From positions 4,605,442-4,669,441 of the forward strand of contig NC_087379.1 of assembly GCF_963675165.1 (NCBI RefSeq): 64,000 nt of DNA. Direction: 5' to 3'. Each line of letters opens with the position of its first letter. The stretch's first letter is position 1. The DNA comes from Halichondria panicea (lineage: Eukaryota; Porifera; Demospongiae; Suberitida; Halichondriidae). A program made the translations under genes and the position numbers. Shown here piece after piece: positions 11,901-34,000 of this stretch. The notes beneath the pieces are model-generated. The model was not told the origin of the DNA. It worked only from the letters and a program-made list of their open reading frames with translations, and did no database searches.

Positions 11901-14900
11901 AACATCAGATTTATCATCAGCTTTGTGGATTGGGATTACATTCCAGGCCGAGGGGACTTTTCCTTGACTGAGGGATAGGTTGAAGAGTGTAAACAGTTTA
12001 GGTGGCTATGTAGCTGGCAGTGTTCCTTAACATAATACTATAGAGATTCCATCTGGTCCAGAAGCAGTCTTTTGTTTGTAGTGTAGTAGTAGTTGTTCTA
12101 CCTCTAAAATAGAGCAGTGTATGGATAGAAGGCAGACTGCTTGAGTAGTTGGTGATGGGATAGCAGCGGCTGTGAGGGTTTAGAGAACAAGATGCCAAAA
12201 AATTGTTAAAAAAATTCGCCTTCTCAAAGGTTTTTCTGCTGAGTGGTATTTGAGAGTTATCTGGGGTGGAGTCCTCGGATGGTTTGGTGGCAGTTTGTGA
12301 TATGCAGACCAAAAGTCCTTTGGGGAGTGGATGTTTCTGGCGAGATTTGAGAAGAAGTCTTTTTTGGCCGATTGAAGGGCACTGGTCAAGTTGTTTCTGC
12401 ACTTATTGTATTTGGACCACGATTGGAGAGTGTTTAAGCATTTTGCTCTCCTGTAAAGACGGACTTTCTTCTGCATTAATTTGATGATAGATTTTGTTAT
12501 ATGCGGCAGCTTTCTTTTGGAGGGAGATCGTTTTGAACGTATGAACTTGGACATAGTTGCCATGAATACATTGAACCAGGTAGACCAAAAGAGGTAAACA
12601 TCAGTATCTGAGAGGAAGCTTGTGGGAATGTTCCTAAGAGCATTTTTGACAGACTTGAAGTCTGCTTTCTTGTATAGCCCAAATTTCCTGCGAAGAGCTT
12701 TAGCACTTTTTGGGAGGGACATGTCCAATGAGACGAATATTGTGTTGTGGTCGCAGCCATCAAGCGGTGGGCCGACTTCACAGGACAGAAGTTTTGATTG
12801 TCAGTGAGATAGATATGGTCAATAATGGACGAAGATGAGGTTGTTGATCTGGTTGGTGACGAAACAACTTGTTTGAGAGATGATTTGTCACTGCATACCC
12901 ATGTGTCAGGAGATGCTTGCAGGATGGAATAGTTAGGTCCGAGAGGCCAATACAGTGGGTGTGGAAGCCAGGTTGGAGGCCTAGTTTTTACCCTAGAAGA
13001 TTCTGACTGTAAACTAGTGAGGACCAGGAGCTGATGACATCACTGGTGGTTAGAAAGTACCGAGGAACAGACTCCATGCAGAGCTAGAAGACAAGTGTTG
13101 CCATAGCTACAGCCGGCCACTATAGCACTATACTACACTGTGTACTAGTTGGACAGATCTATAACAGAGCGTGGGTAGCAATTAAAAGGTCATAATTAGC
13201 CAAGTGGTGTCCGACCCTTCTCTGCCTATTAATTTTGTCGTGTTGGCAGATTTCCCAAAGAGAAGTGGACCTGCCAATGATTGGTAAGTTCTCACGAGAG
13301 AAGCTTCATGACTACCCACCCAGGATAGTGTGTCGGTTCTTCCCTGAACAAGGAGCTATCTCCACCACATGCACTCTCTCACTGCATGGCTTTGACACGC
13401 CAGTCAGTGTAAACATGGCATTGGAAGGCTTTGACAAGCCAGTCAGTGTAAACATGGCATTGCTCACTCCTCAGAGATCAGTGGACACTAAACAACTCAA
13501 GGTGTTTCACTCAAGTTCTATTATAGTTAAATACACTTTATATGTGCCATCAAATGCATGAGTAAAAATGTGTATACTCTCTGTTGCTTACTTAATACCT
13601 AAGACCTACATCCGTATACTGATGTGTGTTCGTTATATACAATGCATGCACGTGATTGTAGGAAGCCACTGAAGTGCTGAGGAGAACAGTTAGTGAGATA
13701 ACCACCACATCACAGCTTGGCCCTTCTGTGGAGAGTGTACTATCACTAATGGAGAAAATGGCAACTGCACTTCAGTGAGATGTCTACTATATAGCACTGC
13801 ATGTATTTACTTATCTCCCACCTCAGGTCATCTTCTCTGAGCGAGCTAGCAGCCCTCACTGACTCCATACGGACAGAGATAGAGTCTGTCCTTGTAGTGA
13901 CCAGGAGGGTTGTCGAGGACTGCACATTACAGAGTGAGAACATTGGAGCTAATCTCTCTAAGATTGATGATTTATCTCGCCAGTTTTGTATGGTGGCCAG
14001 GGCCAAACGCAGACACTGTCAAGGTGAGAACATGTGTTTATGATATCAAGTGTTAAGATTTCAATGGTATATACAGACCAGTCAGAGGAGGCAGCTGCTC
14101 TTGTTGACCTGGTGGAGAATGGAGCTAATCTGTTAAGAGCTGTGGACTTAGCACTCAGGGAGATCGACACACTCAGTGGTGAGTGTACATTGTCAGAGTT
14201 ATGCTGTGTATATATATTGAGCCTTAAAAGGTAACTATTATAATGTACCTACCCAAGGTTATGAATTTTAGAGGGGCTTTTACTCCCCCCTCCCCCTTGG
14301 ATTTGGTTCTGTTTGCCCTTTTAAAGTCAAACATGGTATTAACATAATTATTATGTATTTATTCTGTATTTTCTTGAAGCTGGGAAAGGGTTAATTCAGA
14401 GGAGATAATGACGTAGTCTTTATTAAAATACTTGAACCTTGAACAAACTTTTAACAAGCTCTTTTCTAGCCAGCAGGCTACCTTTTCATTCTGGAAACAA
14501 GAGTATACTTATATGATGATATAGCTGAGCTATACATTCACTCTACAGCACGGTAGCTCCTACTTTATAAAGGTCAGAGGTCAGTTTGACATGACAGAAC
14601 TACGACCTTTGTGAGAGGTCACCCCTTTTAGGCACTGCATGATTTCTCTGGAGGGGCGCAGTAGCTAAAAGTTAACTAATTTGCAGCAGCAGTAACATGA
14701 AGGGGCTACTTTATCACAAGAATCAGGGCGCGACATGCAGTCAAACTTGCAAATTTACTGCACAAAACATAAGCTCACGTAATGATTCATTAGTGACCTT
14801 TTGACCCTGTCCACCTTCCTCTGGGGTTAATTATCTTTTGTAGTTTTAGCCACACCCTATAACGCGGAGTGATTCACGCAAACATTTTCATTTCCAATCC

Positions 14901-16140
14901 CTCTTACTGTTCTATCCTTGGTCTATCACAGTGTCCATTGGTGCATGCATCATTGTTCACGCTCAATGTACCTTACTTTAAATTAACATTTATTAGAACC
15001 TTATTAACACCTTACGTTATGTAATATTTACTACTACCTTAACCATGATTTGATGTTGATATCATACTCTTCTCTAACAATTCTCATTGTTAGTGCTCCA
15101 CTTCCTCCCTTTGTTGTTGTGCGAGCCTCTGGGGCCCTGCTCCACGTATTTAAGGTTTTGTTTACCTTTTTTGCCTCACTTCACTTTAACTTCGTTTTAC
15201 CCTGTATTGTCAGTTGATGTTTTGCTTCTCAAACTAAGAATTTGGTTAAGCTATACTGTGAAGTCAATTTGTCTATAATTAGTTGTTGTTGCCTATAGCT
15301 AGGAGCCTGTCTCTAGCTAATTTGTCTAGCCTGTCTAGAATCCCTCTACACCAAGATAAGAGCTCAACAATCATTCATTGTTCCATGTGCCTTCTATGCT
15401 CTGTGCATGTACTACAAGCAATGCGCATGCGCCTATTCTCCGGATGCGCTTATATAGAGATTAACCACGCCCATGACATTTCAATGACGCATGCATGTGC
15501 ACTTCTCCATTAACTGGCTCGATCGTTGTCTGCAGAGGTCTATAGTCATCAGCAGTAACACAACAAGTGAAGGAGACTTGTGTAGAGACCAGTTGTTGGG
15601 CAGAGAACTGTGCAGAGAATCATGCGCCTTCTATCGAGGCTTTTGGTCTGCTAACCAATATGCGCCTATAATATATATATAATATTATTAGTTGATGTGC
15701 GCTTATTAACCGGTATATACAGTATATTGTATGTATGGCAATAATATATAATTATGTATTGTACAGTGTACTGAGTCTATTTGTTTTCATTAGTGCTCCA
15801 GTGTGGGCATACCATGCTCTATAGCCATTTCCTCTTTCCTGCAGGTAACACTGGCTACAGTGTGCTGATGAGCTGCAGTGAGATGATAGTTCAGTCACTC
15901 TCTGAGGATCCAAAGGCATTGGCCCTCCACCTCCTGTCAGCTGGGATCATCACTGTGTCCATTCTTGAGGCAACCAACGAGTTAAATGAGACAAAGAGAG
16001 AGAAGGCTACCCGATTGTACACTGCCCTGATTGGTGTGGTTAAACACCACCCCCACAAGTACGACGTGTTTGTCTCCACTCTCAGACGCAACCCACTACA
16101 CACTGACTTGGTCAGAGAATTAGATAGCAAGTGCATGTAG
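5792..16140 (+). CDS. UNC5-like receptor tail: TM helix, ZU5, UPA-like, death-fold
   Basis: Exons inferred: 5792-5900, 5953-6011, 6064-6561, 6616-6725, 7088-7255, 13250-13501, 13662-13774, 13827-14023, 14077-14178 and 15845-16140; all junction phases agree. The first visible exon encodes a hydrophobic span (ITVLLCILTSLVFSIWVF), taken as the transmembrane helix. The third exon carries a ZU5-like domain (SSGGHADFANGVKVAVPANA, then NGQVTVSMEHYV). Exons 4-6 have spacing and composition like the UPA region (VDLPMIGKFSREKLHDYPPR). Exons 7-9 are helical and acidic. The last exon ends in a six-helix-like death-fold segment, CARD- or death-domain-like (LLSAGIITVSILEATNELN ... YDVFVSTLRRNP ... LVRELDSKCM). 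The order TM-ZU5-UPA-death matches netrin receptor UNC5. No extracellular exons were found upstream, so the N-terminus is missing or lies beyond repeats. Ligand and signalling are unknown. Confidence 0.7.
8020..8868 (-). mobile_element. Old LINE 3' part with an inverted RT segment
   Basis: On the minus strand, 8750 down to about 8020 encodes RT C-terminal blocks: FKYLGVTISKNLSWSQHI, then PKLEYCAAVWDP, then SLPPEV. The frame is broken. On the plus strand, 8755-8868 encodes an earlier RT block (PISLLSLVSKVLERIVHNQ) in the opposite orientation. Upstream minus-strand sequence at 11880-12800 encodes the linker and the RT block ending DKSDVSNYR, which would normally run straight into that PISLL block. 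The copy therefore carries an internal inversion and lacks the YADD region. A younger LINE has inserted into it. Confidence 0.65.
8870..11815 (-). mobile_element. Nearly intact LINE (endonuclease/RT), with poly(A) tail
   Basis: The open frame runs from about 11800 to 9097 on the minus strand, roughly 900 residues. The endonuclease part begins within NARSILPKIDCLAANC and TETWLNDN, then RHGGGVMLFIKDNY, so the 5' end is truncated and no upstream ATG is seen. RT blocks are complete: [34 protein letters not shown] and the catalytic LLLYADDLLLY. The 3' end carries a 36-nt T run on the plus strand (8870-8905), which is the poly(A) tail. At an A7 run near 9125-9132 the frame shifts by one base. In the other frame the expected ending (KAISVWNELPLEL) continues to about 9035. 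The lack of other stops indicates a recent insertion. The protein would be an endonuclease/reverse transcriptase for target-primed insertion; a CR1/L2-Jockey type is inferred. Confidence 0.88.
11830..12960 (-). mobile_element. Old LINE 5' part: endonuclease-RT linker
   Basis: The minus-strand translation from 12728 shows the basic, Trp-containing linker typical between LINE endonuclease and RT domains (FWSTWFNVFMATMSKFIRSK ... SAKKDFFSNLARNIHSPKDF). After a frame change it shows an RT finger block (VPSAWNVIPIHKADDKSDVS). Upstream remnants of endonuclease lie at 12960-12780. It is separated from its own 3' part (8020-8868) by the younger LINE. It is a decayed copy. Confidence 0.65.
13388..13465 (+). 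repeat. 39-bp in-frame tandem duplication in the UPA-like exon
   Basis: GGCTTTGACACGCCAGTCAG at 13388 recurs at 13427 as GGCTTTGACAAGCCAGTCAG. The unit is 39 bp and adds 13 residues (FDTPVSVNMALEG then FDKPVSVNMALL). The reading frame is preserved. The two copies differ by very few bases, so the event looks recent. Confidence 0.9.
14179..15844. other. Long last intron of the UNC5-like gene
   Basis: Between the donor at 14179 and the acceptor ending at 15844 I see only repeat remnants. These include a C/T-rich 14275-14305 segment, a degraded end of the 1677-2211 element family near 14896-14930, and a palindromic AT run at 15665-15690. No additional exon is supported. Confidence 0.5.
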
Positions 16141-17400
16141 TTTGCATGTCAACAACATAAAATATGTATAATATATGATCGTGCGTACTTTCGCTTTAGG
16201 CTCTGTCATTCAAAGTTACATATCTCCCTTGAATTGAATTATACTCATGACCTTTAGTTTTATGCTGATCTTATCCTTACTTTGATGTTTTCTTTTAAGC
16301 TCTGTCAACTGTAAAACTAAGCAATAATACAACTGACAATCTTTACCAAACGAGTGTTGCAAGCTGCGCTGCATGTACTAATCCTCTCGCCATGTTATGC
16401 TTTCGCTCAGAGTGTTATAGTAGAGGGAATAAGTTTTTTCTATAATGAATTTTAGCTAGTTTAATAGCTTATCTATACTGAGAAGAAAATACTTGTTTAC
16501 ATGCATCTATATTGATGTTATCCATTATATTATTATGGGGTGCCGTTTAACTTAAAATTATGTTTTAACTATTATTTGACACTTATAAATATAAGGCACA
16601 TTACAGAAGTAGCGTCTCGTGTGCTTTTTTTAAACGCCGCATTGCCTTATAAGAAAAGTGTGTAAGTGACATAAATTACAGACCGCGAAGTAAAAAGTCC
16701 TGACGATCCTCGCCTCTGATAGTCTATATGATCTATCTCTCTAACTAGCTACGTATACATATTATACGTAAAACAATGAGTACGAGTAGTAATATAGCGT
16801 TACTATCAACATACATGTAAGCACTCTATCAAACGCACTAGCAGTTCAAATACAGCCAGCTAGGCTGCTAGCCAGTGTTGTGAGTCACCATGGAAACAGT
16901 GGGGCGACGGAATATAATATATATAGGTGATGTACTTATACATAAGTCATCCTCTTATAATAAGAGCATTATTATGACTTGTGTATAATTATTATTATAT
17001 ACAATGCAACAACCAAAGAGTAGAACTTTTGATTTTTTACGTTTTTGTGAATATCTTCTAAACAAAATGTGATTGGATCAATTTGAGTGTAGGTACTGAA
17101 AGTTCAACTATTGGCGCTTCCATTGGACCACCACCTGTTACATCATATGACATCATCATTCCAAAATGGGTGCTATAATATGTGTACATTGAAAATATGT
17201 TATAATTATGTCAAGTGAATAGCATACAATAATCATTCAGTATAGATTACTAGTTGTTCTGCAGATGAATGGGGAGGGTTGGTGCACCGTTAAACCCATC
17301 ATTCTCGACTCAAGGTCGGGCATCTACTTGCTTTTTCTATACCTGTATGCATGGTTTTGTGCTGTTTGCTCTTTTTTTTTACTTGTCTAGGATAATACAA
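16141..17400. other. Intergenic, no gene seen
   Basis: The stretch follows the TAG of the UNC5-like gene. It is AT-rich with short tandem AT runs. No exon with consistent splice sites was seen on either strand. Confidence 0.4.
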
Positions 17401-17404
17401 GGTC

Positions 17405-17612
17405 TCAAGGATCCACCAGAAAAGGCTGCAATGGTATTCCCAGTAGGCATAACTCGAGAACGAAGCTTTATTTTGCAAATCCACAAACACGAATCCAAGA
17501 AAACATGACTAGAAGCCTATAGAAACTCTTACTTTCACTTCATTGATCCAGCTGTAGCAGTCTACACAAACACACTACCGTATACCTCGCTTGCGCATGC
17601 GCACCGAGGCAT
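17405..17612. repeat. Interspersed repeat, inverted partner of 23632-23865
   Basis: The segment aligns with the reverse complement of 23632-23865. Shared landmarks are GCATAACTCGAGAACGAAGC, AAAACATGACTAGAAGCC and the terminal CTACCGTATACCTCGCTTGC followed by GCATGCGCACCGAGG. The CCTCGGTGC end also appears, degraded, near 25110 and 24495. No protein is supported. Confidence 0.75.
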
Positions 17613-18190
17613 CATTATAGCCTGGAATCACCATGTGATAAAAAAATAATTACACCCGCTATATGACATAATTATGCTAGAATAATCAATACAGTACTTA
17701 CGTAGGCCATAATTATAAGATGTATGTAAGATATATATAAGATTAGAAAGTCCTAAAGGGGGAAATTTTACCCTCCTATTGTGTAGATTGCCCCCCTCGG
17801 ACAGTCTCTTACAATATAATTAGTTTTTTTGCTATGAATAGGATCAGATGTCTGGGAAGACAAACTATACCGTAGGATGTCCAGAGAGACAACTTACGTA
17901 TGAGGGTGACCACCGGTACATTAATATATCAACTTCCAGCTGGACCAAGGAAATTGTGCGAAGGCCACAAAAGTCAGTACGACAAGACATTCAAAGTGTG
18001 CCCAATCTCCTCCCATGCTTCCCCACTCTACACTTACTACACATTAACTGACGTGCATATACATTTGTTGTACCTTTTCTCACTGCTCTTTTGTCACAAA
18101 TTGATCTGATCCATTATAAAACCACCATCATTGGATATGCACAACTTTATGGAGTTATTCGTCGATAATCCTAACTTGCCTGCACACGCT
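17613..18190. other. Downstream flank of the mARC gene
   Basis: No exon is supported on either strand. An open frame at 17848-18051 has no recognisable composition or splice context, so I leave it out. Confidence 0.4.
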
Positions 18191-18191
18191 A

Positions 18192-21100
18192 TTAAGATTG
18201 TACATAGAGAGTGTCTTCAATATTAATTCTCCCACTATTGAGCACTGAAAAGCTGTACCCAAACAGAGGGGATGGGCCAAACCTCGAGTCAGTGGGACAG
18301 TTATACACTGTTTCATGAAGACGATACCTGCATGGGGTGAAGAGACTGGCTGAATAGCGCACCACTAGCTGCATCTACACTTTACCACCATAATTATATA
18401 AGACACAAAAATTACGTACGCAACTATATGGTGCTATATATGGAAGGTCGGCTTTATATACTATAAGTAGTGTGAAGGAAGTGGGTGTAAAATAGTGGGA
18501 TGATCTGTCACTACATGTATGTAGTTAGATTACTGAACTAGGATACTGTGTGTGATGTTAGGCCCTTCTTGATTGCAGGGCTGCATTGAGGGGGGCGAGG
18601 ATGGTAATTTGTCCCCCCTGGGCACAGTTTCGCCCCCCCCCCCAAGGATCTGGCAGTGTACCACTATAATTCTGATGACTTCGCCCCTCCTACATTTTTA
18701 AATTTCCCAATTCGCCCCCTCCCCCCTAATACAAAATCCTGAATGCAGCCCTGGATTATTTGTGTTCTGTTGCGCAATCCCTTCACCTTCAATTTTAAGT
18801 AGCTGTATGTTTTGCATTTGTTATACTCGATCTTTAATGTGAATTTTAGATACTATACCTCCTACCGTCAACCTCATGCACTCGCTAGACTAATTCGGTC
18901 TCGCTAGCCAGCCTAACAAAGTTTTATACATGTTGTAATTATAATTTATATTTAAAAAGCCATAAAATTACTGCCGTCACGTGTCACGAGACACAGTTAT
19001 TGCATACAACATGATGTGAGCATCTTGGGAGAGTTCACATCCATCGTGCATGGCTTTTTGTTTGGATGTGCATGTATAGATATGTGTAGCAAACAAAACA
19101 ACATCTGTCAATATACTTTATGTTCTACAACTGTTGTTTGTAGTTGTATGTGTAGACAGTAAGTGTAGTGAACAAAACAATATCTGTCAATACTTTATGT
19201 TCTACAACTGTTGTTTGTAGTTGTATGTGTAGACAGTAAGTGTAGTGAACAAAACAATATCTGTCATTTTCTTCCAACAACTAAATCGTTTCGCTTTTTG
19301 TTGTTGTTATGTGTACAGTAATGTGTAGCTATGTGTAGTGAACAAAACACACACAATTCACATCTGTCTATTGTGCTCCGTTTTCGGAACAACACAAGGT
19401 TGCAAATTCTGTTGACTGATCAACACGTTCTGTCCACTACTATATAAATCTGATGCCTATTCCTTCTGTTGCACAAAAAATACTGTTATGGACTAGGACC
19501 AACTGACCAACACTCCGAAACTGATTTCCACACAAAGGGATTGATCGTATCATGGAAAAAGAGAGTTGTGCAGATCCTGACAACACAACGACTAAACGAG
19601 TGATTTCTGAAAACACATACGATTTGATTGAACGCAATGTAGTAGGTAGAGTTGGATTTATCCCTACTGTCAGCCAGAGTAAGAAGACAACTGGACGAAG
19701 TACGATAATTTTCGTGACCATCATAGCAACTTTGGCTTTGGTGCTTGCAGTGACAATATTGATCATTGACAAGACATCAAATCAACCTGCCGCCAATACT
19801 GGGAGCCTGGACAACACACAAACCCAGCTGAGTGCCTCGGACGAGTCAATTCAGAACCAATTTTTTCAGGCACAGTTGAACAATTTAACTCGTGCTATAC
19901 TGCCAGCAATACAAGCAATTCAGTCCAATATTGATGAAAATCATCGAGAGATACAGGATCTTCATACGCACCAAAGCAAAAAGATACAAGATCTTAAAAA
20001 TGACACTTTTCGAGATATTGAAGCCATTCGCACACAGCAAGACAGCACCAACCGTGAGATACAATATCTTCAATCACAGCACAATGACACTGATCAGAAG
20101 ATGGTACAAGCTAATGGGAACAACTCAGAAGATACACAATGCCTTGGATTTGATCACAGTCATCCTGCGCCTTCATGTCAGCAGATTCTTGATTGCAGTC
20201 CGTCCATTTCGAGTGGTCATTTTTGGCTCGGAACAGAAGAGAATGTGGTATTGATGTTCTGTGACATGAACAGGACATGTGGTGGTATGTCTGGTGGGTG
20301 GCTACGTTTGATTGCGTTAGATATGCGAGACGAGAATCCACCATGCCCCGGTAATTTGATGCTAATAGAGGAATCAGGAAAAAGACTGTGTACTGGAAAT
20401 TCTGGTAGTAGTGCGTTTATTGAAGCAAATGTGCAATACAACATGGTGTGTGGCAGAGCAATCGCGTATCAATACGGTGCTTTAACCTCTTTTTACACAA
20501 CACAACATGGAATTGACAATGGCTACGTCAACGGTATTAGCCTTATACATACAGTTCCAATCCTCGCAAGCATATCTGGACATTTGCAGGAGCTCACGAT
20601 GAATATGGTTCTACAACGAGAGAAAACTGTCCGTGTATTTCGGGAACCAGTGCTACTCAACCACCAAGTTTTGTAGGGAATGATTATTTCTGTGATACAG
20701 GTGCAACTCGAATTTCCAATGACTGTCATGTTCCTCTTCCCCCAATAACATAATAATTACACTACATAAAATCAACCACTACATGTAAGTAACTAAATTA
20801 AGTGCTAAACACTCGGGGCTTGAAGTGTGCTTGTAGATCTATAGTAGTAGGTCATGCATGCACTGGGACTACAGGATCAAAATCTTGGCTGGAATAGCGA
20901 GGTGACTGCATTTCAGAAAATAGCCGGGGCTATACTGATTGAAAAAAGGACCTTACCTAGAAATTAATGATGGTTCTGTATAAAGGATAATGAATCATTA
21001 CTGCTCTCTATTTCAGTAATTCTGCCAAACCACACCCAAAACGTCATATCCGGCTGTAAATTACATTGAAAACCTAGTTTTGGGCAGCCAGTACTGCTAG

Positions 21101-23658
21101 TATACGGAATAGCCAGTGGCCGCATTTCAGGGCAAGTTTTGTGTAGTAAACATCTAGCTAGCAATCCGTGCAAAACAAAATGTCCAGTATATCAAGGTGG
21201 CCGTACTTCAGAAGCCAGAATAGCAAGAGTCTCACTGTAATTAAAAGACAAATAAACACATGGGTAATAGTCGGCCACTGACTCACTCTTTGAGAATTTT
21301 AAGTGGCTCCTCACCAGTGACGTAGCCCTGCTCTGGATTGACACGAGACGTCTTACAACAACCACAAGCTTTCAGCCCCCTCAGAATTAACGCATCACCG
21401 ACTCTCACTACTGCTTCCCAACTGTCCTGTTTGGATGAATCGTACGTGCAGGAGGAGTGAGAATGAGAATGTTTGCTTCATATAGCAACCAATCACTGGT
21501 TGACACTATTGCTATTGTGCTGCAAGGCATTGCCGTATTTTCTTTACATCCAGAAAACCTAGAATCCAGAAAGAGCTTGAAAGAAGATGTTAAATCAGTT
21601 CAAGAAGATATAAGTGCTATGCTTACGTCACCATCTATACATGTATATATGCAGGTATTTCGTCTTGTACTTCTGGCTCGTTTAATCTCCCTTTTTTTTC
21701 CTAAAGTTGCAGTTTTACTACACTGGAGATTATAATGGGATTATAAAAAAAACGTATTAATCGTTCGGATTTTGATTGCACTACTGCACTTTTTTTAAGA
21801 GGCTATCATTGTCTAACGGCCTGCAGTCAGACCTCGAAACCAGAGCTGTACATACTTTACTTGTTGTAGATTACTTGCTGTTTAGAGCCTTCTGTTGATA
21901 CGAGAGAAAGAGAGAGAGAGAGAGAGAGTTCAAAGAATCGTGGCTATGTTCGAACTATGTTCCAGTATTTGGCCTTGTCACTCCGCCGAGGAAGCTTTTT
22001 GTTGGCCGTGAGTTTGAACTTGCTTACCTAGGTACCATCAGCTTAGTGCTCTGAGCCGCTGTCCTCGAGAACAAGCGTTTGAAAATAGAACGTGTTCGAT
22101 AATCGGTTGTTTACTCTAGTACTACCCAACGGTTTTTATGGGCTGCATAGCTAATAGTTGCTTATTCTCCTTCATGCACTCCTGTCTGTACGTATGTGCA
22201 TATACTAGTTTGTATAATTACGATGTGAAAGTGTTAATTTCATTGGGATGCATGCTGATGCGAGATCAATCATAATGAGTGTGTTAACATGGAGGGTGAC
22301 ATTGTACGAGTGCATGTGTTTTGTCTGTATCTCAGGAAACTGGTCAGAGCCAGAGAGAGCTAGCAATAGAGTAGGTATGTGTGTAACTTTACTGTCTAAC
22401 CATAATTCCGAGCGAAGCAAGGCTCTAATCTGGTCACGTTGAGATTTTGGAGAAAAAAAGACGACAACGATGACGTCGGACTAGTGGCTCTGGTTGCTGC
22501 AGACTGTAACGGTTCGACTTCAAAGTTGGAGGACGTGTTAGCAGGAGTGTATGAAGAGGAGTATCCAACTGTAGCAGTTGTAGTGTAAACCAGGTTTCGG
22601 TACAAGTATGTCATACCACGTCACTATCAGACCGCATCTAAGTGGGTGCGTAGGTGTAGTGGTTAATTAGTTAAAAATGATATCAGCATACACACGTGTC
22701 AAAAGTTCGCTGTGTGCATGGTCTCATTTGGAGGGTAAATAAATTATTCCATTGCACGTTTTAAACTAAGCTCTCGAGTTTTTTAAGGTGGAATGGAAGG
22801 TACGTTTGGAGTCAGATACAGATGAAGAAGAGGGCTAGCTAACATATAATGAGATTCATTATGTGCCTATTATTAACATCGGTAGACTTAATTCAGCTTA
22901 ATCTCAGACCACTGGGCAAGAGGTGAGCACCAACCCATAAACCGATAACTTGGGCCCAGATACAAGGCAATGTAGAGCCACCACCCATTCCGTAGCATGT
23001 GTAGGCGTGTGAAGCCACGCTATCCAAACGGGTAACCCTAAGAGGCTATGCCTCACCTAAAGATCACAAAGAGGGGGGAACCCCCTCACACAATAAGTGC
23101 TGTGCTCAAGCCCAAGCAGGTGGTGTGAGAAAAAGGGATACCCCCAGAGGCGCCGAGGTGAGAGGGGTGGAAAGACGCTATTAACACTTAGAGGCTTCCA
23201 ACACAAGAATGACTACCACGCGGTAGGTCCCCTACTGCGCATGCGCAGCCACCCCTACTCGTATTAATCCCAAGAGTACTTGCCCCTGGCTGCCATTAAC
23301 CATTGTTTTGTCCTCACACACAAAACCCACTATTAATTACAAAGTCGACAAGACCCACAAACAAATTTGCAATGTGAAAAATTGCTAGGATTGGCTGGAT
23401 GAAACACCAAAAAGCGTAGAAACAAGAAAGCGGGCGAGAGCATAATTTAATCCGTTACAATGTCATTCACATGTACGTTACATTCTTTGCTGGTAGTTTT
23501 CCATGCTATTTTGTGGTTTTTCCGCTTATGCTCTCACCCACTTTCTTGTTTCTACGCTTTTTGGTGTTTCCCTCAGCCAATCTTAGCAATTTTTCTTTTA
23601 TGGGTCTTGTTCCCATGCTTTTTATGCCTCGGTGCACATGCGCAAGCGAGGTATACGG

Positions 23659-23695
<37 letters not shown>

Positions 23696-26600
23696 CTATT
23701 TCAGCTGCTCAAGGATCAATGAAGTGCAAGTAAGAGTTTCTATAGGCTTCTAGTCATGTTTTCTTGGCATGCTATTTGTGAATTTGCAAAATAAAGCTTC
23801 GTTCTCGAGTTATGCCTAGTTTTGCTTACTTGGAATGTCATTGCAGCCTTTTCAGAAGAGTCTGTAGCAAAACTTGTTCACCGAGTGTTGCTACTCTACT
23901 TAGTAGTTAGCTCTGCACTAGAACACTAGCTATTGGTAGCTGCAAGAGTGAGAAGAGAGTAGTTGGGCGGAGCCCGACCGTCCCTGACGGGAGGTAGGGT
24001 TTCAAGCCTATGTCAGGATTTGTCTTTGCTGCAACTATAGTTGCAGCCCAATCAGATTGCAGCATTTCTACTGTGGTCTGTGTCACGTCCGGTTGTGCAA
24101 CCTCAAGCAAGATAAAATGGTTAACACCCACTTCAGAATAATAATATTCATAGAATAAAATGATTATTCATAGCTGCTTATCAGCGTGTTACATAATTCA
24201 GCAAGACAAATCCTGACATAGGCTTGAAACCCGACCTCCCGTCAGGGACAGTCAGGCTCCGCCCAACTAAGAAGAGAGCTGCAAGGCTCTGCTGACTTGC
24301 AGCCATTATTAATTTTTAGACTTGAACTTTTGGCATCGATCGTTTTTAACAACAATCATGGTCGATCATTACCCACTATTTGAGTTTCCCTGTGATTGCA
24401 TGCAGCAAAATTAAAAATGTTCATCATGATAATTATAATCAATGTGTGTATAAAAGCTAGCTATTAGTAGTTTTATGTTATGTAGCTTTGGCACCTCCAC
24501 CGAGGCATCAGCACCCACGATGCTTTCATTTTTCTTAGTTTTTGCTCTTTTTTTACTCTCCTTTATTAATTTGATAACTATGCGAAAATCTGCTGCAGTT
24601 AATTGTTAGGTTGCTATCGATACTGTAAATATAGCACTTTGGCATCCAGGTAGTAAGCAAACTGAAACAGACCATAGACCGATTACTATAATCCGCGTCC
24701 GCTTACGTGCTGGAAACAGAAGTCTGATGGCTAGAGATTATCTTAGTGTAGGTATTCGATGTATGAGCAGTTTCTTCTTGAAACGGGTGAATCAGCAGAG
24801 AACTAAATGCAGACGGTACAGCTCTTTTTTCACTTTTGTAACTAACTAGATAGTGCTCTAGTGCGAGGCTAACTAATAAGTCGAATAGAAACTTTGTATT
24901 CAAGTTTACTATGAACGATTCTGCAATAGCCTTCATTCTATAGGTAAAACTATAGCCATAACTCATACGAAGCTCTATTTTCAAATCCATAGATCAAAAT
25001 CCATGAGACATAGCTAGAAGCCATTAGTTATGGTCACATAGTAACCATTGAGCAGGAAAAGATGGAATACACAGACACACACACGTTTAGCTTTACCGTA
25101 TGACTCCTGCGGCTACGCCCCGAGGCATAATAATCACTTAAGCACCTCCAGTGCAAAATGCCTCGGTGCAAGTTTTTGTCGCACTAAAACAGTCTGGAAA
25201 TGCACCTTTCAAGGAAAAGAACGTCTGAACGCCTGGTTAAGTTCCAATGTAGGTTTCGTGTTATTGATCAAGAAATGTCTTGGACTGGTAATTAACCGTA
25301 CAGGACAGGGCGTTCATGCATGCCCACAATTAGTCATGATTCACATGAACCTATTGTACTATTTAAGTCGTTCTGTGTGATGTGATCCACATGACTAATT
25401 GATATATCGTGTTGTATGCAATATGCAAGGCAGCTCGCTCTTGGGGGGATGCGTCCGCAGGCTTGTATTTTTTGCAACATTCGGCCTTACGCTATGTCTG
25501 TTAGTACATAATAGGAAAGGGCTTAAATTCCAGTGCAAAAAACCAGCACTTGAGCATGCCGCTAAGCTTATAATCGAGAATGGTGAATAGTCCAATTTTA
25601 CTACGTAGGTTAGTGTATAGTTAAAACACGTGGGTAATAGTCAACCTTTCAGGGCCATCGGACTGACTCACTCTTTGAGAGTTTTAAGTGGCTCCTCGCC
25701 AGTGACGTAGCCCTGCTCCTGGTGGACACGAGTCATCTTACAGCGACCACAAGCTTTCAACCCCCTCAGAATTAACTCATCACCAACTCTCACTGCTTCC
25801 CAGCTGTCCTGTTTGGGATTGTGAGAGAAAAAAGCACATGATTGAAGTACATAACATTTGAGAACATTAATTGTCAATTTGTGGCTGCCTAAAACGTTTA
25901 ACACCCACATGCATCATGCATACACGCACAATTGTACTTTCTGGCGCATACATCGTATCAAGCAAACTTTATAGTATGCTCCATACACATACCTCAGCAT
26001 GTGGTAGACATCCTGACAAAACAACGTTGGGTCGGAATCTTTCCATCAGTAGAGCAGTGTCCAGTTTAGAGTTAAGCAGCTCCAGTGATGCCTCAGAGGC
26101 CATTAGCACTGGGGACCAGTCAGAGAAGCTTGTCTGCATGTAAGAGACACACAAGTTAGCGATAGAAAATGATACAAATACAGAATTGTTATTTTACAGA
26201 AGCTGAATTTATCGTTAATAATGTAGAAAGAGTTCGCCATCACCAAACCGTTTTCACCTACTGCATGTTATACTGTTTTTAAAAAGTTACGCCCACAAAT
26301 GTATAGCATCCAACATTATAATACTTCCAAAATATTTGGTGTTAAAACCAGAAGCATACACAGCCTGTGATAACATCAAAAGTTAATAACCTCTTCTCCA
26401 TGCCTGGCGATGTCCTCCCATCGTTGATCCTGCCTGAGGACCCTGGCCCTGTGACGAGGGGCCATGTAGTACAGCCGACAGCCGTCTAGTCCTAAGTACT
26501 GTGAAATCCACTGACTGGCCTCCTCCCCCATGTCCACGCCTTCACCACTTATTGCCCACACCCTAGGTAAAGTATGAAAGTAACAAAGGTGCTGATATGT

Positions 26601-27401
26601 CTTGGTGCACATATTCATTTCTTAGCTATAGACACGTGTAACTAGCGTAATTTACGGCCACTGTTACCAAGGAAGTAATTAATTTTCAAAAAGTGAAGTC
26701 CTGAAATGTGTAATTTCTTGTCTATAGCAAGCTATATAGAGTCTCAGAGCTGTAGCTTTTGCAGCTCTGTTACTCACTCACCAGGTAAAAAATAATAACT
26801 CGTTATATTGAGGCTATCCATCCTGTAAATGCAGCACTTTGGCGTTGGTATTGGGCCATGCACAAAAAGGTAAACCCCACCGTGACTGACATTCTGCCAC
26901 CTACTTGACTAGTGTGGTTTGGGCATCCTCTGGTGGTTGTGGGAGAGTCAGTTTGCTCATGTCAGGAGCGTTGAGGGAAAGTTGTACTTGACCATCGTCA
27001 AGGAAAGTAAGCTCAGGCTGGATTTTGGCCATACTTGGTTGCTTACGCTGGCTGCAGAAGGATCCAGTCTTGTCAATAATCACCCAGCACCTGTACAGTG
27101 ATTGAAGAAAAGTAAAATAGTGAGTACACCCTAAATCCCGTAACTCATTTCCAAATACGCACCTGTCATAGAGGAGGCCTCTTTTGAAGACGTCGGCAGA
27201 GTCCACTTCAATTCTATGGCAGGACTTGACTGGGTATACACACAGCTTGGAGACCTTGGCCACTGGGGTGAGATAAGCAGAAGGAGAGCTGGGAGGCATA
27301 TCAGGGTTTGCTTCCTCCACCTTCCCCCTCAGCAACCACCAGAGGAGAGTGCTGGCTGCAATACCTGAGCCCACTCCCAGAGCCTGAGGGCTGATATCCA
27401 T
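18192..27401 (-). CDS. MTARC: Mitochondrial amidoxime-reducing component (MOSC domain)
   Basis: The minus-strand start is the ATG at 27401. Exons inferred: 27163-27401, about 26907-27090, 26391-26563, 25996-26133, 25669-25828 and 18192-18329; the last ends at TAA. Residues 10-27 form a hydrophobic N-terminal anchor (ASTLLWWLLRG), as in mARC proteins of the outer mitochondrial membrane. The MOSC N-terminal barrel begins at SKLCVYPVKSCHRIEV. The MOSC core has FRPNVVLSGC and the Cys loop LKACGRC, whose first Cys corresponds to the molybdenum ligand of mARC, followed by GEEPLKTLKE. The final exon gives the conserved PLFGYSFSVLNSG ending. The family reduces N-hydroxylated compounds with cytochrome b5 and its reductase. 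The penultimate intron is only about 170 bp, but the last is about 7.3 kb and contains another gene and an exon copy (21289-21430). Confidence 0.88.
18576..18753. mobile_element. Short MITE with CAGGGCTGCATT termini
   Basis: The left end CAGGGCTGCATTGAGG and the right end CCTGAATGCAGCCCTG are inverted repeats around a C/G-run-rich 178-bp body. The flanks GATTG and GATTA may be a short target duplication. One end of a second copy lies at 1598-1645. Confidence 0.7.
19092..19350. repeat. 77-79 bp tandem repeat upstream of the lectin-like gene
   Basis: The anchor AACAAAACAAYATCTGTCA begins at 19092, 19171 and 19248, with a partial fourth occurrence at 19341. Each unit contains CTACAACTGTTGTTTGTAG, which can form a hairpin. 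The array ends about 90 bp before the TATA box of the gene that starts at 19552. It could hold repeated regulatory sites; no factor can be named from sequence alone. Confidence 0.85.
19441..19448 (+). promoter_or_regulatory. TATA box for the gene starting at 19552
   Basis: TATATAAA lies 104 bp upstream of the ATG at 19552. This leaves room for a short 5' leader if transcription starts near 19472. No upstream coding exon is evident, and the single-exon gene body supports this position. Confidence 0.55.
19552..20752 (+). CDS. Type II membrane protein with coiled-coil stalk and fibrinogen-related-like domain (frameshifted)
   Basis: The ATG at 19552 starts a single-exon gene. Residues about 45-70 form one membrane helix (VTIIATLALVLAVTILIID) with a polar cytoplasmic N-terminus. 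Residues about 95-190 are a Gln/Asn/heptad-rich stalk with NLT and NNS glycosylation sites. The C-terminal ectodomain opens with SCQQILDCSPSISSGHFWL, then VVLMFCDMNRTCGGMSGGWL and DMRDENPPCPGNL. This resembles the N-terminal part of fibrinogen-related domains common in sponge and invertebrate surface proteins. In the annotated frame the last ~43 residues lose this pattern. Dropping to the next frame near 20549 restores KHIWTFAGAHDEYG, CPC and NDYFCDTG and ends at TAA 20750-20752. So one base is missing relative to the ancestral frame (mutation or assembly error). The gene lies antisense inside the last mARC intron. Ligand unknown. Confidence 0.75.
20880..21241. mobile_element. Degraded pogo-like element end
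   Basis: The reverse complement of the right end reads TTACAGTGAGACTCTTGCTA and continues with TTCTGGC. The same family start occurs on the plus strand at 58566 (TACAGTGGACTCTTGCTAAT). Internal CACCTCGCTATTC-like motifs recur in both. CAGTGRGACTC termini beside TA suggest a pogo/Tigger relic. The left boundary is not resolved. Confidence 0.5.
21245..21445 (-). pseudogene. Duplicated copy of the mARC penultimate exon with flanks
   Basis: This aligns with 25625-25830. Homology extends into the intron on both sides (GGGTAATAGTC downstream, CCAAACAG upstream). The exon copy at about 21289-21430 is fully open on the minus strand: DSWEAVVRVGDALILRGLKA, then CGCCKTSRVNPEQGYVTGEE. The acceptor CCAAACAG and the donor context AAAGAGTGAGT are both kept, as is the exon phase, so it could splice to the last exon at 18329. 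Differences include one inserted Val and Arg-to-Cys in the Cys loop. It is either an alternative exon or a fortuitously intact duplicate. Confidence 0.8.
21447..21690 (+). pseudogene. Duplicated talin exon-intron-exon fragment
   Basis: The segment aligns with 37247-37490 of the talin gene, including the exon (TIAIVLQ ... SLHPENLESRKSLKE), part of the following intron (ACGTCACCATCTATACATG) and the start of the next exon (GTATTTCGTCTTGTACTTCT). Because the intron is retained, it is a DNA-level copy and not a retrocopy. It begins two bases after the mARC exon copy ends, on the opposite coding strand. Confidence 0.85.
22331..22842 (+). CDS. Small acidic C-terminal exons of an unknown gene
   Basis: Three exons join in phase: about 22335-22369 (after ATCTCAG), about 22444-22584 (donor GTGTAA), and about 22791-22842 ending GAGGGCTAG. 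The product reads ETGQSQRELAIEFWRKKDDN, continues NGSTSKLEDVLAGVYEEEYP, and ends VEWKVRLESDTDEEEG. The acidic tail and consistent splice phases suggest real coding sequence. The 5' part is not found; it could lie upstream near the talin-derived fragment. No family is recognised. Confidence 0.35.
22900..23300. other. GC-rich non-coding segment of unknown type
   Basis: This stretch is distinctly richer in G and C than its neighbours, with short runs (AGAGGGGGGAACCCCCT, TACTGCGCATGCGCAG) and several small hairpins. It has no open frame of interest and no tRNA-like A and B boxes that I can recognise. It may be an interspersed repeat or the body of a non-coding RNA; I cannot decide. Confidence 0.3.
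23632..23865. repeat. Interspersed repeat with a TG microsatellite
   Basis: This is the inverted partner of 17405-17612. It starts at CCTCGGTGCACATGCGC, contains a (TG)n run at about 23659-23692, and continues with AAGAGTTTCTATAGGCTTCT and CTTCGTTCTCGAGTTATGCC. The TG run has expanded only in this copy. Confidence 0.75.
23960..24269. mobile_element. Mutator-like MITE with perfect 9-bp target duplication
   Basis: The unit starts TAGTTGGGCGGAGCC and ends with its exact reverse complement. The inverted arms stay almost identical for about 70 bp, including CCTGACGGGAGGT and TTTCAAGCCTATGTCAGG. It is flanked by the identical 9-bp repeat AGAAGAGAG (23951-23959 and 24270-24278). Long TIRs with 9-bp duplications are typical of Mutator-like (MULE) elements. 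The 310-bp body has no transposase. Confidence 0.9.
24300..25620. other. mARC intron sequence without a gene
   Basis: No exon is supported. Degraded CCTCGGTGC-type repeat ends occur near 24495 and 25110. A short phrase (TGTAAATATAGCACTTTGGC) near 24625 recurs near 26830 with small changes, suggesting another dispersed repeat. Confidence 0.4.
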
Positions 27402-28086
27402 GATGACTTGCAGTTGAAACAGTGAGTCTAGCCAGAGATAGAGTAACTTGATAGGTCTAGCTATTAAACTCCATGTGTTTGCATATCATGGGTCTTCCCC
27501 CTGCCATGCCCATGCAACTTAGATCTATGAATAACCTATCAATTGTTGCTGGAATGCAAAGAATGCTGTTGAGGTTAAGTTGTTTGACCACCACCATGCT
27601 CTAGCCACGTCTGACTGGGACAACTGACAGGTATATCTGCTCTAGCTAGCTGTGTGTACGTGTACGTATCTAGAATATTGTGTGTGTTCTTACATAGATC
27701 TAAACCTTTCTGTTAAACATGCATGGTCAAGGTTTGATCAGTAGTCTCAAGATATGTAGATATATAATCTAAGGAAAGCCTTCAGTCTCTTTAATAGTAT
27801 ATATAGTGTGATTATATTTTTATATAGTCTACTAGTATGATGTTTCCGGTCCATTGGTTTGGTTATGATCCGAAGCAAACGTGTGGATTTACAATGTCAA
27901 TGATTTATGTAAATTCGAGACGAGAGTTCATTGTTGGAGCATCAGTCTTTATAGATCTATAGCCCATAATTTTACTCCGTTAATACACTATATTGCACAA
28001 TAAATTATGGCCAATTCTATTCACATCCAAATGTGGCAATCATAACTCATGCTGTTGGTCTACATAGTATTGTTCAATCCACAGCT
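27402..28086. promoter_or_regulatory. Divergent intergenic region between mARC and talin
   Basis: The starts of mARC (27401, minus) and talin (28087, plus) face away from each other across 685 bp. Both upstream regulatory regions must lie here. I see no clear TATA box at the expected spacing for either gene. Blocks such as TTGGGAAACCC-type sites are absent, so no factor can be proposed. Confidence 0.45.
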
Positions 28087-31000
28087 ATGCCTCCACTACT
28101 TCTAAAGATATCCGTTGTGGGAGGAGTGACCAAGTTACTGCATTTTGATAAGTCAATGACAGTGTTTGATGCATGCAGACACATCCGGGCAAAGTTAGCA
28201 TCGTCAAGTCAACAACAATGTAAGATTTTCATGGATCCTTTAATAATTAAACAGCAGTCAGTATTTCAGGAATCAGACTACTTCAGAATGTCGTCATCAT
28301 CATTATTTTTGGCCACCTATAAATTGTGTTCCTATAAACCTTGGGACCAAAGTCTATTTTAGTATTAGTCAGTTAAAAATGTTTTAGCTTGTTTGCATTT
28401 TGACACAACTCGTGCAGCTGACCAGACGTACGGCTTGTTTCTCTCAAAGGAAGATCCAACGCTAGGCATATGGCTCGAGAATGGCAGAACTTTGGATTCC
28501 TATAAATTCAAGTCAGCAAAAGTTAGTAAGCCATGCAGTGGTATAATTATAGCTGTTATCCAGATATTAGTGTAGTCAACCTCTGACACACAATACAGTT
28601 ATAGTTATGACTTTAATGGGGCTTCTGTGTACATATTGCTATCCCACACATTGTAGCTCACACAATCACTTAGTGTTGGCTTTGTTGAAAAATGCATGAG
28701 TCTAATTTAACAGGAGTGCATGCATGCATGCTTGTACATATTTATATCTTATAATTATGACTAAGAATGTATACAGTACTTATACTCCTTTGGTCATTTC
28801 CTTCCCTCAGACGTCACTGGAGTATCGTTCAAAGCAGCGACTAATACGTGTCTGTACGTTGGATGGGGCGACACGGAAAGTTGTTATCGATGGTAGTCTA
28901 CCGGCACTGGAAAATATCAGAGCAGTATGTGCACGAATAGGTATGTCCTTTGAGCTTGGAAATAACAGTACAGCTATGACCTTCTCCTTGCTCCAGGAAT
29001 TCAGAATCATCAAGAATTCTCTTTCACAGTGGACAAAGACTCACAGAAATCTACTTTTAAACGAGTACGTGTAATAATGGCAGTATACTGAATTCACTAG
29101 CAGCATTGTTACATTCCTAATATCTCACCAGGCCGATAAACCCAGTGCAGACAGAAAGCTTGACACCCTCCGAAAAGAAAGGCACACTCACGATTTCTGT
29201 AAGTTATTGATAGATCTACTAGATGGTATTTTAGCCACAGTACCCACAAAAAGCACACACGTAATGACATTATCCTATAAGTATATATAGGTTTTGTGTA
29301 GTGCTAACTAAACTTACTTTATATAACCTTTGCTTTTTGTTATGTTACCGTATGCGCACGTACATTATAAGCCAGAGAGCCCTATATACTTTGTGTTGAC
29401 TCCTTAATATATTATTACTACTATAGTGCACTGGGTGGACCCTCATAAGACACTGAGGGAGCAGGGACTGTTTGGAGACTCTGTGGAGCTCACTCTCAGG
29501 AAGAAGTACTTCTTTTCTGACGAAGACATTGGAGCCAATGACCCAGTTCAGCTGCATCTCCTCTATACCCAGGTACGTTCAATGACATTTTAAAATCATC
29601 ACTCATGATTCCTCGCAACATTTTTGTGATCATGCACATTAGGTACTTCTCTGTGGTGATGCCAAACATTTACAAATTGTCTTGATCACTTTATGCATGT
29701 ATACGATTACATAAATTATTGTGATATAAGAAGTAGGAATTATACAGGCACCTATATATATATATATACCTTACAGACTAGCGAAGCAGTGACCAATGGA
29801 GTGCATCCAGTTACCATAGCAGAGGCCCTATCTTTGTCAGCTCTAAGATGCCAGGAAATGTATGGAGATTACCTGGAAAGGAAATTCCAGAAAGGATCCA
29901 TCAGATCAACGTACGTCTCCAAGTAGAAATGTACCTGATCTCTAGTACACTTTTGTCCTACTCAGTTTGAGAGGTTTTCTACCAGTGGAATACAGAAAAG
30001 ACACAAGAAAAACAAAAGCCAGCTTTCTATTGGTACGTACGTATACACCAATCACAATGTAATTAACTGAGTGCATACTGATGCAGGAGTATCAAAAGCT
30101 GGCTGGTCTCGAGGATTTGTCAGCCAAGTTCCAATACATTGAAAAGTGTAGAAAGCTAGACACCTACGGAACGTCATTCTTTGCTGTCAAAGTAACTTAC
30201 TACTATAATAGATTCTCTTATTATTTCACCCACACTGTTTGCTTTATGATTAGGAAAAGGTTCCTCGACGAAACAAGCTCCACCCTGTCCTGCTCGGAAT
30301 CAAGAGGGAGTGTGTGCTCACACTTGACATTAAAACTAAAGAGGTTCTAGAGATGTGGGAACTCCAAACCATCCACAGCTACTTCTCCACTCCAACAAGC
30401 TTCTGTCTGGTAATAATAGCTAAGAAATCCACTCAAACAATTGCGTGTGCATCTTTATTCAGAATTTTGGTGGCTACCGATCTGGCTTGTACATTGTTAA
30501 GACAACTGAAGGAGAGTCGATAGTTCAACTACTAGACGGCTATATTCAACTCATTCAGCAAACAGTAAGCTTTTATTATACACTCAAGGCATGCATCAAT
30601 GTTTGAATCACTTATAATAATTATAGATGAAGCAAAATTCAGTTCTCCCTCCTTCATCACCCAATGAGAAGGTTCTTAGTCCTAAGGTAAAGAATTCATT
30701 TGTATACATGTGTGCGCTATATATATAGACCTTTCTTTTGTGCGCCATCTCTTCAATTAAAGTGCGTACGTATAATTATACATGCTTTGCACTACATGTG
30801 CTTCATTGTAATACTCCTTCCCTACACTTCAGGAGAAAATGCAGCAAGTGATTTCTGAAGTTATCAACAATGTGTCTCAGTCTCAAATTGCATTAGAAAC
30901 ACCAGCTGAATCAAAAGTACGTATATACAAGTATTACACATGGCATAATACAGCCGAAATTACGCTCATCCATACATGCACACGCATGCATGCAGATAAA

Positions 31001-34000
31001 GAAAGCAAAGGGTGTTACTATAGAAACCTCCAAGTTGAAGCTCAGTGCATTAGTGAGTGCTCTTCTCTATTCAAGTGCTATACTCTGGAGGGAAACAATG
31101 TCCAAAAGTTGTGACTACATTCAAATCTCTGCTGCAGCATACAGCTTGTACGTTAATCATAAACCTTGATCATGTTACTGCATGGTGCACAATATAGGGA
31201 ACCAATTGTCTCTGCCTTGACTGACTGCTCTAGACTGCTAGCTTCCCTGGGTCTCACAGACAAGGACAGTGTAAGGATTCTCGGCTCAGCAAAGACTCTC
31301 GTTGACACCATTAGCAGGCTACTGGCACTGGTTAAACAGGATGAAAGTGTTAGTATCTGTCACATCACTGTAATTACACTGCTCGGGTATTTATGTCTTA
31401 ACAGTATATTGCTAGTAGATACACTGCATTGCAAACTGATGTTGCTATTGTACATGTGTTTAATTAATGTATGTACATACTAACATTGGCAGGTTGATGA
31501 TCAAGTACAAGCTACGTTAGAGGATGTTGCGTCCAGAGCAACTGATTTACTGGCGATAACAGACCTGAAGAAGGGAGTATCGTATGGCACATACCAATCT
31601 GCTGCACCTGTGGTGTTATCAGTTACAAGCTCTGTATCCAGGTTCCTTGCCGAGACCATGAGGATTAAAGGAACATGTGGCGATGATACTCTAGAAGTGG
31701 AAATCATGTCCAGTGTGAAGGTATGAGTACTTCAATGGCTATAATTATATAGATTATGCTTACGTATAATTGTTTATGTCCCCGAGTACAATAGGGTCTG
31801 CATGAAGAAGTCTGCAAGTGTATGCATAAAAAATCTGTATTAAAGTTATATACGTACAACTTACAAGTTGATTTCTACACAATGCATGCATCTTCAAATT
31901 GAATGTATGTAGGATGTCAAGCTGTCTTGTCAAGTCCTAGCTACTTCATTCACTGTGCTCTCCTCTTGTTCTGAGTCTCCCATTGGCCAATCTCTCCTCA
32001 TTGAGTCAACACAGGCTGTCATTGAGTCTGTTCACAGACTATGCTTTGCATCTAAGGTAATGCTATATAATAGCGTCCAGATACTTTTTTAAATGTTGTC
32101 GCTTTCTAGCTGGATTCTGACTTAGAAGCGTTCAATCATAATTCAATTGTTTTCAAAATAATCCTTTTGAATTGAGGAGTCTTGAATACTTTTTATTGCT
32201 TGTTGCTATCCTTGCATATATATAGTGGATGAATTTAATGTTTTCTCTCAGGGTGTGTGCTTGGACGGAGGTTTGATCATTGAAATCGGAGCTTCAGCAT
32301 CCACAGTAGCTTCAAATCTGAACTCCCTGATTACAAAACTTGGAGCAACATCCCAGGAATTTCCGAGACATCCATTAGAGAAATCTTTCACTAGTGTTTT
32401 AGCTGAAGCTAGAGTATTGAAAAGGTAAAAAACAGCATTTTATGTATGACTGACTCTATACGAGTTTGTAAACAGCAACAATTGTCAAATTTATTGATGA
32501 CATTTTACATTCTAATAGTCTTCTAACAAGAAAGCAGCCCAGGAGAAAGGTTCTAACTCTCACAAAGAGCTTCATGTTAAAGATGGCTGCACTGATCCAA
32601 AACCTCAAGTCTTACTACACAATTAAGGACTTTGATCGAAAGAGGGAACTGCTCGATTCGCTTAAAAAGTTGCTGGATGAGATTAGTGTCTTGGTTGAAG
32701 GTGTGAAGGACACTTTTCTGTCAAAAGTATCCACTGGTGAGGACTAACTACTATATGTGCTGAAGTTAAATTCGAGGTTGAAAGGTTTATCATGTGGTGC
32801 TTATATTGTAGACTGAGCCAAACTTGGTAAATTGATTATTACCCCTCTCAAAAATGTGTGTTCCTATACTTAATTGTCATGCTATATCCTGTATGCAGAC
32901 GCGGTACTGAGCTATCTTGACGAATCAGTGACTACTGTGTCTGTTATTGTCGAACCGCTCCTGGAGCAAATCAGATACACTCAGTTCTCAAATACGGTGC
33001 ACACAACATTCGACAGCACTTTAGTGCTCACAGTCATCGTAGAAACTGCAGCTGGTGAGTGTGTACGTAGTTGTCTATCTACAGCAGATATGTTGAAATG
33101 TGTACTAGAGACATCTGTATAATTATAGTATCTATGTGGACATTAAGGTGGTAATCAATACGTCATTCATTGCAGAGCATTCTGAGTTTAAAACAATGCT
33201 GCTAGAACACTGTAAGAAGGTGGAAGCCAAGTTGCGAGCTGTGCAAGCTGCCTTCGGTACTGAAAACCATGTTATTATGTGGACGGATATTAGAGAAATG
33301 TTTCCAGTGAGTCTAAATGCGTAGTAAGTGTATATACTAAAATTTAACCCCCCCCCCCCCCAGTACTTATCGTCTCTGTGTACCTTCTCAAGAGCACTGG
33401 CACAAGAGCTGTATTCCAAGAATCAATACGTTTCAGAAGTGATTCGCATGTGGAGCTTTCATGTTCAGTCTCAACTCTATGAGCTAAAATCAATTCTGTC
33501 AAAGGTAACCAATTCTTTTGTCATTCCTCTTGAGTAATTGCTTTTAATCCTAAAGATGATGAGCTACAGTGGAGGAAGCTTCGAAATTTGTAGCAAGTCC
33601 CTGAAAACTCTGAGAGAATCTATCCAGCACCCATTGAAATCAACTGACGGACTTGATGCCTTATCGTATGGTCAAACATGTCACACGTTAGCGCGGTCTT
33701 GCAATGTTTTCATCTCTCTGGTTTCTGAGTTGACTGATAGGTCAAGGAAGAATTTCACCTATACAGTATTGGTCTCCCAAACAGAGAAAATTGTCAATTC
33801 TTTGCTTGGATTAAGACAAGATGTAAAGGAGTCGAAGTCGATGGAACTGGCTGTGCGACTATTAAATGAGATCGAAGGGCTTGGTGAAGAATTGTTCAAC
33901 CACTCACCATTGGACCTTAGGCTAATTGATGCACTTCGTAAAACTATTTTCGAGATCAGAGTCTGTTTACCTCTTCATCAAGAATTCTCAACTACTCTTC

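Follow-up and report, generated by a model that had tools for sequence, protein, structure and literature searches.

The closest described counterparts of the locus analysed here are repair-mediated duplications, which were surveyed in the human genome by Pace et al. (2009), where 824 proximal cases, the longest of 619 bp, are given in the excerpted text of that paper (PMC2671141). The chimeric human cases, those with two donors, number 20, and in all of them one or both donors are found within 5 kb; in five of these, the donor pair is located on the same chromosome, 289-3,432 bp apart, whereas in the other 15 the second donor comes from another chromosome (PMC2671141, same excerpt). At the 68 human breakpoints inspected in that survey, fillers of 1-68 nt and microhomologies of 2-9 nt were found. 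In one case, the complete exon 7 of ACSBG2 was copied, in the opposite orientation, into an intron of its own gene, with no constraint on this copy in evidence (PMC2671141). Complex human insertions templated from several loci are attributed to FoSTeS/MMBIR in the available part of PMC5120786. Among the titles and abstract openings retrieved for repair-mediated duplication, no title beyond that of Pace et al. concerned such a survey.

Here we describe a chimeric patch in a 64-kb window of DNA (the window is the whole stretch that was analysed). Self-comparison of the window yielded two strong matches for the stretch in question, both on the plus strand. The host gene, mARC, consists of six minus-strand exons (exons 1-4 at 27401-27163, 27090-26905, 26562-26391 and 26133-25993; exon 5, of 137 nt, at 25808-25672; exon 6, the last one, at 18327-18192), which, when joined from 27401 to 18192, form an open frame of 336 residues. 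The joined protein contains the Pfam domains MOSC_N (1.2e-29) and MOSC (1.9e-19) and matches human mARC1 over residues 47-107 and 140-334 (E 1e-43), with exon 6 falling inside the second of these stretches. In a search of the window with this protein, exon 5 alone was matched twice, and a scan of viral contigs detected no relative. Exon 5 holds what we take to be the catalytic cysteine of mARC.

The gene adjacent to mARC, transcribed divergently from the plus strand, is talin-like. When 13 stretches of the plus strand from 27970 to 38383 were scanned, only three matched FERM domains, two of them reaching the cut-off: 27970-28362 (FERM_f0, 6e-7; talin-1, 1.6e-5) and 30063-30350 (FERM_M, 2.7e-6; talin-2, 0.0017). 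The third, 29660-29926 (FERM_M, 3.1e-4), is under the family cut-off; all three are on the plus strand. The talin name is based on these head exons, 9 kb upstream of the segment that served as the second donor (37250-37494, plus strand). This segment comprises an exon (37250-37399), a 64-nt intron and the start of the next exon (from 37464). Neither of its two exon stretches matched a Pfam family, and the exons at 37 kb appear, from their strand and position, to belong to the talin-like gene.

The initial, sequence-only reading of this region reported fragments of two genes lying side by side inside an intron, and the alignments confirm this at 21254-21434 and 21447-21685. The host intron (18328-25671) belongs to mARC itself and is its last, so that the patch lies between exons 5 and 6. 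The first piece (181 nt, minus strand, 21254-21434) is a copy of 25624-25816, that is, of mARC exon 5 with its intron edges (in the mARC sense, 8 nt before the exon and 33 nt after it). It is 83% identical to its donor when gaps are counted (E 6e-54), with mismatches at 15 of the 181 aligned bases in an alignment started at 21241. The second piece (239 nt, plus strand, 21447-21685) is a copy of 37245-37494, a talin exon-intron-exon segment, again with 83% identity counting gaps (E 3e-76) and with 16 mismatches among 231 aligned bases. The divergence of the two pieces is alike (Fisher p 0.71), which points to about equal age. Because both pieces contain exon and intron sequence, they were copied from DNA, as the sequence-only reading had concluded; the retained introns, together with the opposite transcription of the two genes, rule out a retrocopy. 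Given that the first piece is on the strand of its host gene, the patch also qualifies, by its sequence, as a same-strand exon duplication.

The gap between the two alignments is a filler of 12 nt (21435-21446), not the two bases reported earlier. At the left joint (21241-21253), the acceptor TTAA (21241-21244) is accompanied by about 10 nt that are absent from the donor. The order and orientation of the donors are both preserved in the patch. Within the window, 11,429 bp separate the two donors, roughly the 12 kb of the earlier estimate, but the donors belong to neighbouring, divergently transcribed genes and are therefore not the unlinked sources envisaged in that reading. The patch is 3,939 bp from the start of the mARC donor and 15.6 kb from the talin-like donor. 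When homology was extended from anchors past the patch edges, three of the four extensions had a score of 0, against 3.6 for the left one; the latter (21165-21253 to 25529-25623) was rejected, its score having been equalled by 8 of 60 random placements. The chimeric unit is present in only one copy within the window, and a plasmid sequence search with 20800-22400 produced no match.

In its overall structure, the patch resembles the chimeric duplications of the human survey: both are short and have two donors, one of them within 5 kb, and both contain a filler at the joint, are DNA-based and show no sign of retrotransposition (excerpt of PMC2671141). As in the case of ACSBG2, a whole exon was placed in an intron of its own gene, although the orientation is the same here and opposite there (PMC2671141). 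Two further features set the patch apart, within what the excerpt covers: its two donors are separated by 11.4 kb, which is outside the range observed in the 20 human cases, a range that is not a definition, and the patch lies beside a repeat rather than inside one, whereas the survey method required an interrupted repeat (PMC2671141). Serial templates, with microhomology or small insertions at the joints, are shared with the FoSTeS/MMBIR templated insertions; those, however, are rearrangements in human patients and families, whereas the patch is only an old product (excerpt of PMC5120786).

We consider the patch to be, with a probability of roughly two in three, a chimeric repair-mediated duplication, produced via synthesis-dependent strand annealing or template switching. 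The two donors, the sharp edges, the like divergence, the filler, the kept introns, and the lack of element ends and of a collinear remnant all argue for a repair scar. Under this reading, a chromosome break would have occurred in the last intron of mARC, at a TTAA; the broken ends would have copied short stretches of nearby DNA, at distances of 3.9 kb (mARC exon 5) and 15.6 kb (the talin-like gene); and the new strands would have been joined through the 12-nt filler, leaving the patch as the scar. A single event appears to be responsible, with both ends apparently primed at TTAA. We infer, rather than prove, this origin, and the event would be of a known kind.

The word TTAA is found at the left edge of the acceptor and at both outer donor edges (25621-25624 and 37491-37494). 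In 200,000 random placements, a donor-edge tetramer occurred in the left 16 nt of the acceptor with a frequency of 5.9% per edge and 0.35% for both edges, in a test designed post hoc; the same tetramer at both donor edges and in the acceptor was seen in 0.03% of random placements, likewise post hoc. A plain search for shared words gave a longest direct match between the flanks of 4 nt (TCTC), a length reached by 86% of random flank pairs. For this reason, the microhomology that the sequence-only reading proposed to look for at the joints is suggestive only.

The nearest rival to repair, which we regard as unlikely, is the duplication of a 12-16 kb segment containing parts of both genes, followed by a large deletion. 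One deletion, of 11.4 kb, would be sufficient if the copy was dispersed (25.6-37.5 kb), and this form comes closest to the repair model, whereas two would be required if it was in tandem (21.7-37.5 kb). The preserved order and orientation are what a larger duplication predicts, with an estimated chance of 1 in 4 for two independent pieces, and they count against repair, as does the distance between the donors, which exceeds the 289-3,432 bp of the five same-chromosome human pairs (Pace et al. 2009, excerpt of PMC2671141). The like divergence of the pieces fits a duplication too, and the same TTAA words could serve both a tandem junction and the deletion. Nevertheless, more than 96% of the copy must be gone, with two islands left, and the collinear remnant of inter-donor DNA that such a history predicts was not found. 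Specifically, when the interior (25817-37244) was compared with 14000-25620 at high sensitivity, two weak matches emerged (62 nt, minus; 31 nt, plus; E 0.003 each), neither of them collinear with the patch and both on its right side, and no convincing collinear remnant of a continuous copy of the 11.4 kb between the donors was found. A single control stretch gave one match, with E 0.15; the stray matches of the interior are thus slightly better than that of the control, which is a further point against the repair model. In the tandem form, 21686-25528 should recur directly to the left of the patch, and no direct copy was detected there, the only strong match being an inverted dispersed repeat (23588-23853 to 17651-17419). 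For one segmental duplication containing both genes, which the sequence-only reading named as the finding that would overturn its own account, no collinear remnant of the DNA between the donors was found; later loss may account for this.

There is a slim chance that the patch derives from a second, unseen mARC-talin locus or represents an assembly error. Other donors may exist beyond the 64-kb window; however, a divergence of 7-8% is large for an assembly duplicate, and both donors are nearby and in the right order.

The ends of the patch were also inspected for signatures of transposable elements. There is no CTRR at the 3' boundary of the patch on either strand: the only two plus-strand occurrences of CTRR are within the talin copy (21673) and 16 nt past the edge (21701), and on the minus strand there is none. 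On the 5' side of the minus strand, no TC was found, and the sole plus-strand TC is at 21232, so a Helitron pair of 5'-TC and 3'-CTRR is missing from the patch boundaries. The longest exact inverted match between the flanks is 5 nt, a length reached by 42% of random pairs; no terminal inverted repeat (TIR) or target duplication beyond the random level was found at the patch flanks, and no piggyBac-type ends (TTAACCC/GGGTTAA) were detected at the patch. Although a dispersed repeat stops about 14 nt short of the patch on its left side, the capture of both pieces by a transposable element (Helitron or Pack-TIR) that then inserted here is scarcely credible, given these ends and the failure of the left-hand repeat to resume on the right, where 128 of 200 random placements gave as good a score. 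Of the causes listed in the sequence-only reading, template-switching repair thus fits the evidence, whereas a capture element is left without support.

The dispersed repeat on the left of the patch (20917-21239, plus strand) has a second copy at about 58870-58562 on the minus strand and is absent to the right of the patch; an insertion of the patch inside this repeat was therefore rejected. A 15-nt word similar to GTGRCYGYAYTTCAG occurs three times in the repeat, and both copies of the repeat have CACTGTA near the patch-side end, a possible terminus of a DNA transposon that targets TA. The inverted pair 17419-17651/23588-23853 was considered as the terminal repeats of a large element and discarded, as it includes a TG microsatellite and has a third related stretch at 24822-25136. 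Elsewhere in the last intron of mARC, there is a MITE-like element (23960-24269) with inverted arms of about 72 nt that are 94% alike and 167 nt apart. The same intron contains, on the opposite strand, a 383-codon open frame (19525-20676, plus) with one hydrophobic stretch near its start, for which no Pfam family was found at the cut-off. The window further includes a non-LTR retrotransposon frame of 901 codons (9097-11802, minus) with an endonuclease and a reverse transcriptase (RVT_1, 2.5e-36); a head-to-tail pair of 179-bp copies that are 98% identical and separated by one base (51320-51678); and two head-to-tail copies of about 200 bp that are 84% identical (47592-47978). We set aside the weak self-matches with E above 0.01 and two with E below it, which pair 24586-24710 with 59664-59518 and 24613-24643 with 26813-26843.

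The two copied pieces differ in their state of preservation. The copied mARC exon (21287-21426, minus strand; 140 nt against 137) is open and keeps its GTGAGT donor and AG acceptor; it has one in-frame 3-nt insertion, with the phase unchanged. With the copy in place of exon 5, a full-length frame of 337 residues is obtained, and the use of both exon 5 and the copy, or of neither, breaks the mARC frame; the copied exon could, by this prediction, replace exon 5 but not join it. In the talin copy, the exon has acquired an in-frame stop (CGA to TGA) and insertions of 6 nt and 2 nt, the splice donor has been lost (GTGAGT to ATAAGT), and the intron, at 45 nt, is 19 nt shorter than that of the donor. 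This shortened intron is in frame without a stop, which results in a 98-codon open frame (21439-21735, plus) on the strand opposite to mARC. We do not accept this frame as a new gene because stop-to-stop frames of 80 codons or more number 109 in the window.

Since the patch is located in the last intron of mARC itself, on the same strand, a position that the sequence-only reading missed, the potential for a chimeric transcript raised there is first of all that of an alternative mARC exon. The copy resembles the products of tandem exon duplication, including mutually exclusive exons, in its homology, matching phase, nearly equal length and placement in the next intron; it is unlike them in its talin passenger and in having no clear sign of constraint (excerpts of PMC9013439 and PMC3228551). 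Similar length, the same phase and splice sites, and a homologous protein, by which mutually exclusive exons are recognized in the excerpt of PMC3228551, are all found in the copy. In the literature search on mARC and exon duplication, 'amidoxime reducing component' and 'MARC1' were absent among the matches listed.

A working mutually exclusive exon of mARC, kept by selection, is nonetheless an improbable interpretation of the copy. It is favoured by the position on the same strand between exons 5 and 6, by the retention of near-equal length, phase, donor and acceptor, and by the full-length open frame that either exon alone leaves. It also draws on the ratio of 7 nonsynonymous to 7 synonymous differences from exon 5 (a count that omits the inserted codon), because so few nonsynonymous changes appeared in only 3.1% of 20,000 neutral runs in which all changes were placed on the copy (3.7% of the stop-free runs). 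However, the exon of the broken talin copy has 6 nonsynonymous to 4 synonymous differences, and synonymous changes on a constrained donor exon shift the ratio likewise. The open frame of the copy is unsurprising as well, given that no stop arises in 55% of the neutral simulations, and the pyrimidine tract of the copied exon is weaker (11/20) than those at the five other acceptors (13-15/20).

The residues that distinguish the two exons also speak against use of the copy. As outgroups, we took human mARC1 and three bacterial relatives, the latter from a contig scan in which 36 stretches fitted a pattern and 3 were relatives. At the R/C difference (exon 5/copy), all four outgroups have R; this arginine, which precedes the second cysteine, is kept in all five other sequences (exon 5, human mARC1 and the three bacterial relatives) and is replaced by cysteine in the copy. 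The cysteine that follows the lost arginine is presumably the molybdenum ligand, C273 in human. At the T/I difference in EPLKTL, T is present in all four outgroups, whereas M/T corresponds to L in three outgroups and I in one, and T/S to T in three and P in one. The H/N site is D in all four, with the N of the copy being nearer to D; Q/P is split, with Q in two outgroups and P in two; and the seventh difference, E/A, falls where the outgroup alignment is ambiguous. Two sites with unanimous outgroups, and two others at which most of the outgroups concur, have lost the family residue in the copy; exon 5 departs from it at one site. The MOSC score drops from 70.3 bits with exon 5 to 58.4 with the copy, although the chimeric protein is still far over the cut-off of 22.7 bits.

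The copied exon is probably inert, because the arginine is lost and its substitutions are much like those seen in the talin copy, which is broken, and we read its residue pattern as decay. The repair event would have left, by accident, a second, splice-ready copy of exon 5 that is probably unused and decaying. We deem it very doubtful that this single repair accident made, in one step, a ready-made mutually exclusive exon with the catalytic cysteine of mARC, for which the antisense talin piece would supply branch-point-like words and a pyrimidine-rich tract (TTCTCATTCTCACTCCTCC), so that a filler fragment would have become the splice signal of another gene. In this scenario, the mARC primary transcript would also include 239 nt of talin antisense.

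If the repair reading is true, the patch would document, in a clean and old form, the assembly by break repair of fragments from two neighbouring genes in a single stretch of DNA, and would show how a phase-matched exon copy can arise in its own gene without simple tandem duplication. The spliced talin-like and mARC genes suggest that the host is an animal. If it is an invertebrate, as suggested by the divergence of the talin-like gene, a class of events surveyed in vertebrates would be extended. The importance of the locus would be much greater only if the copied exon is used in RNA.
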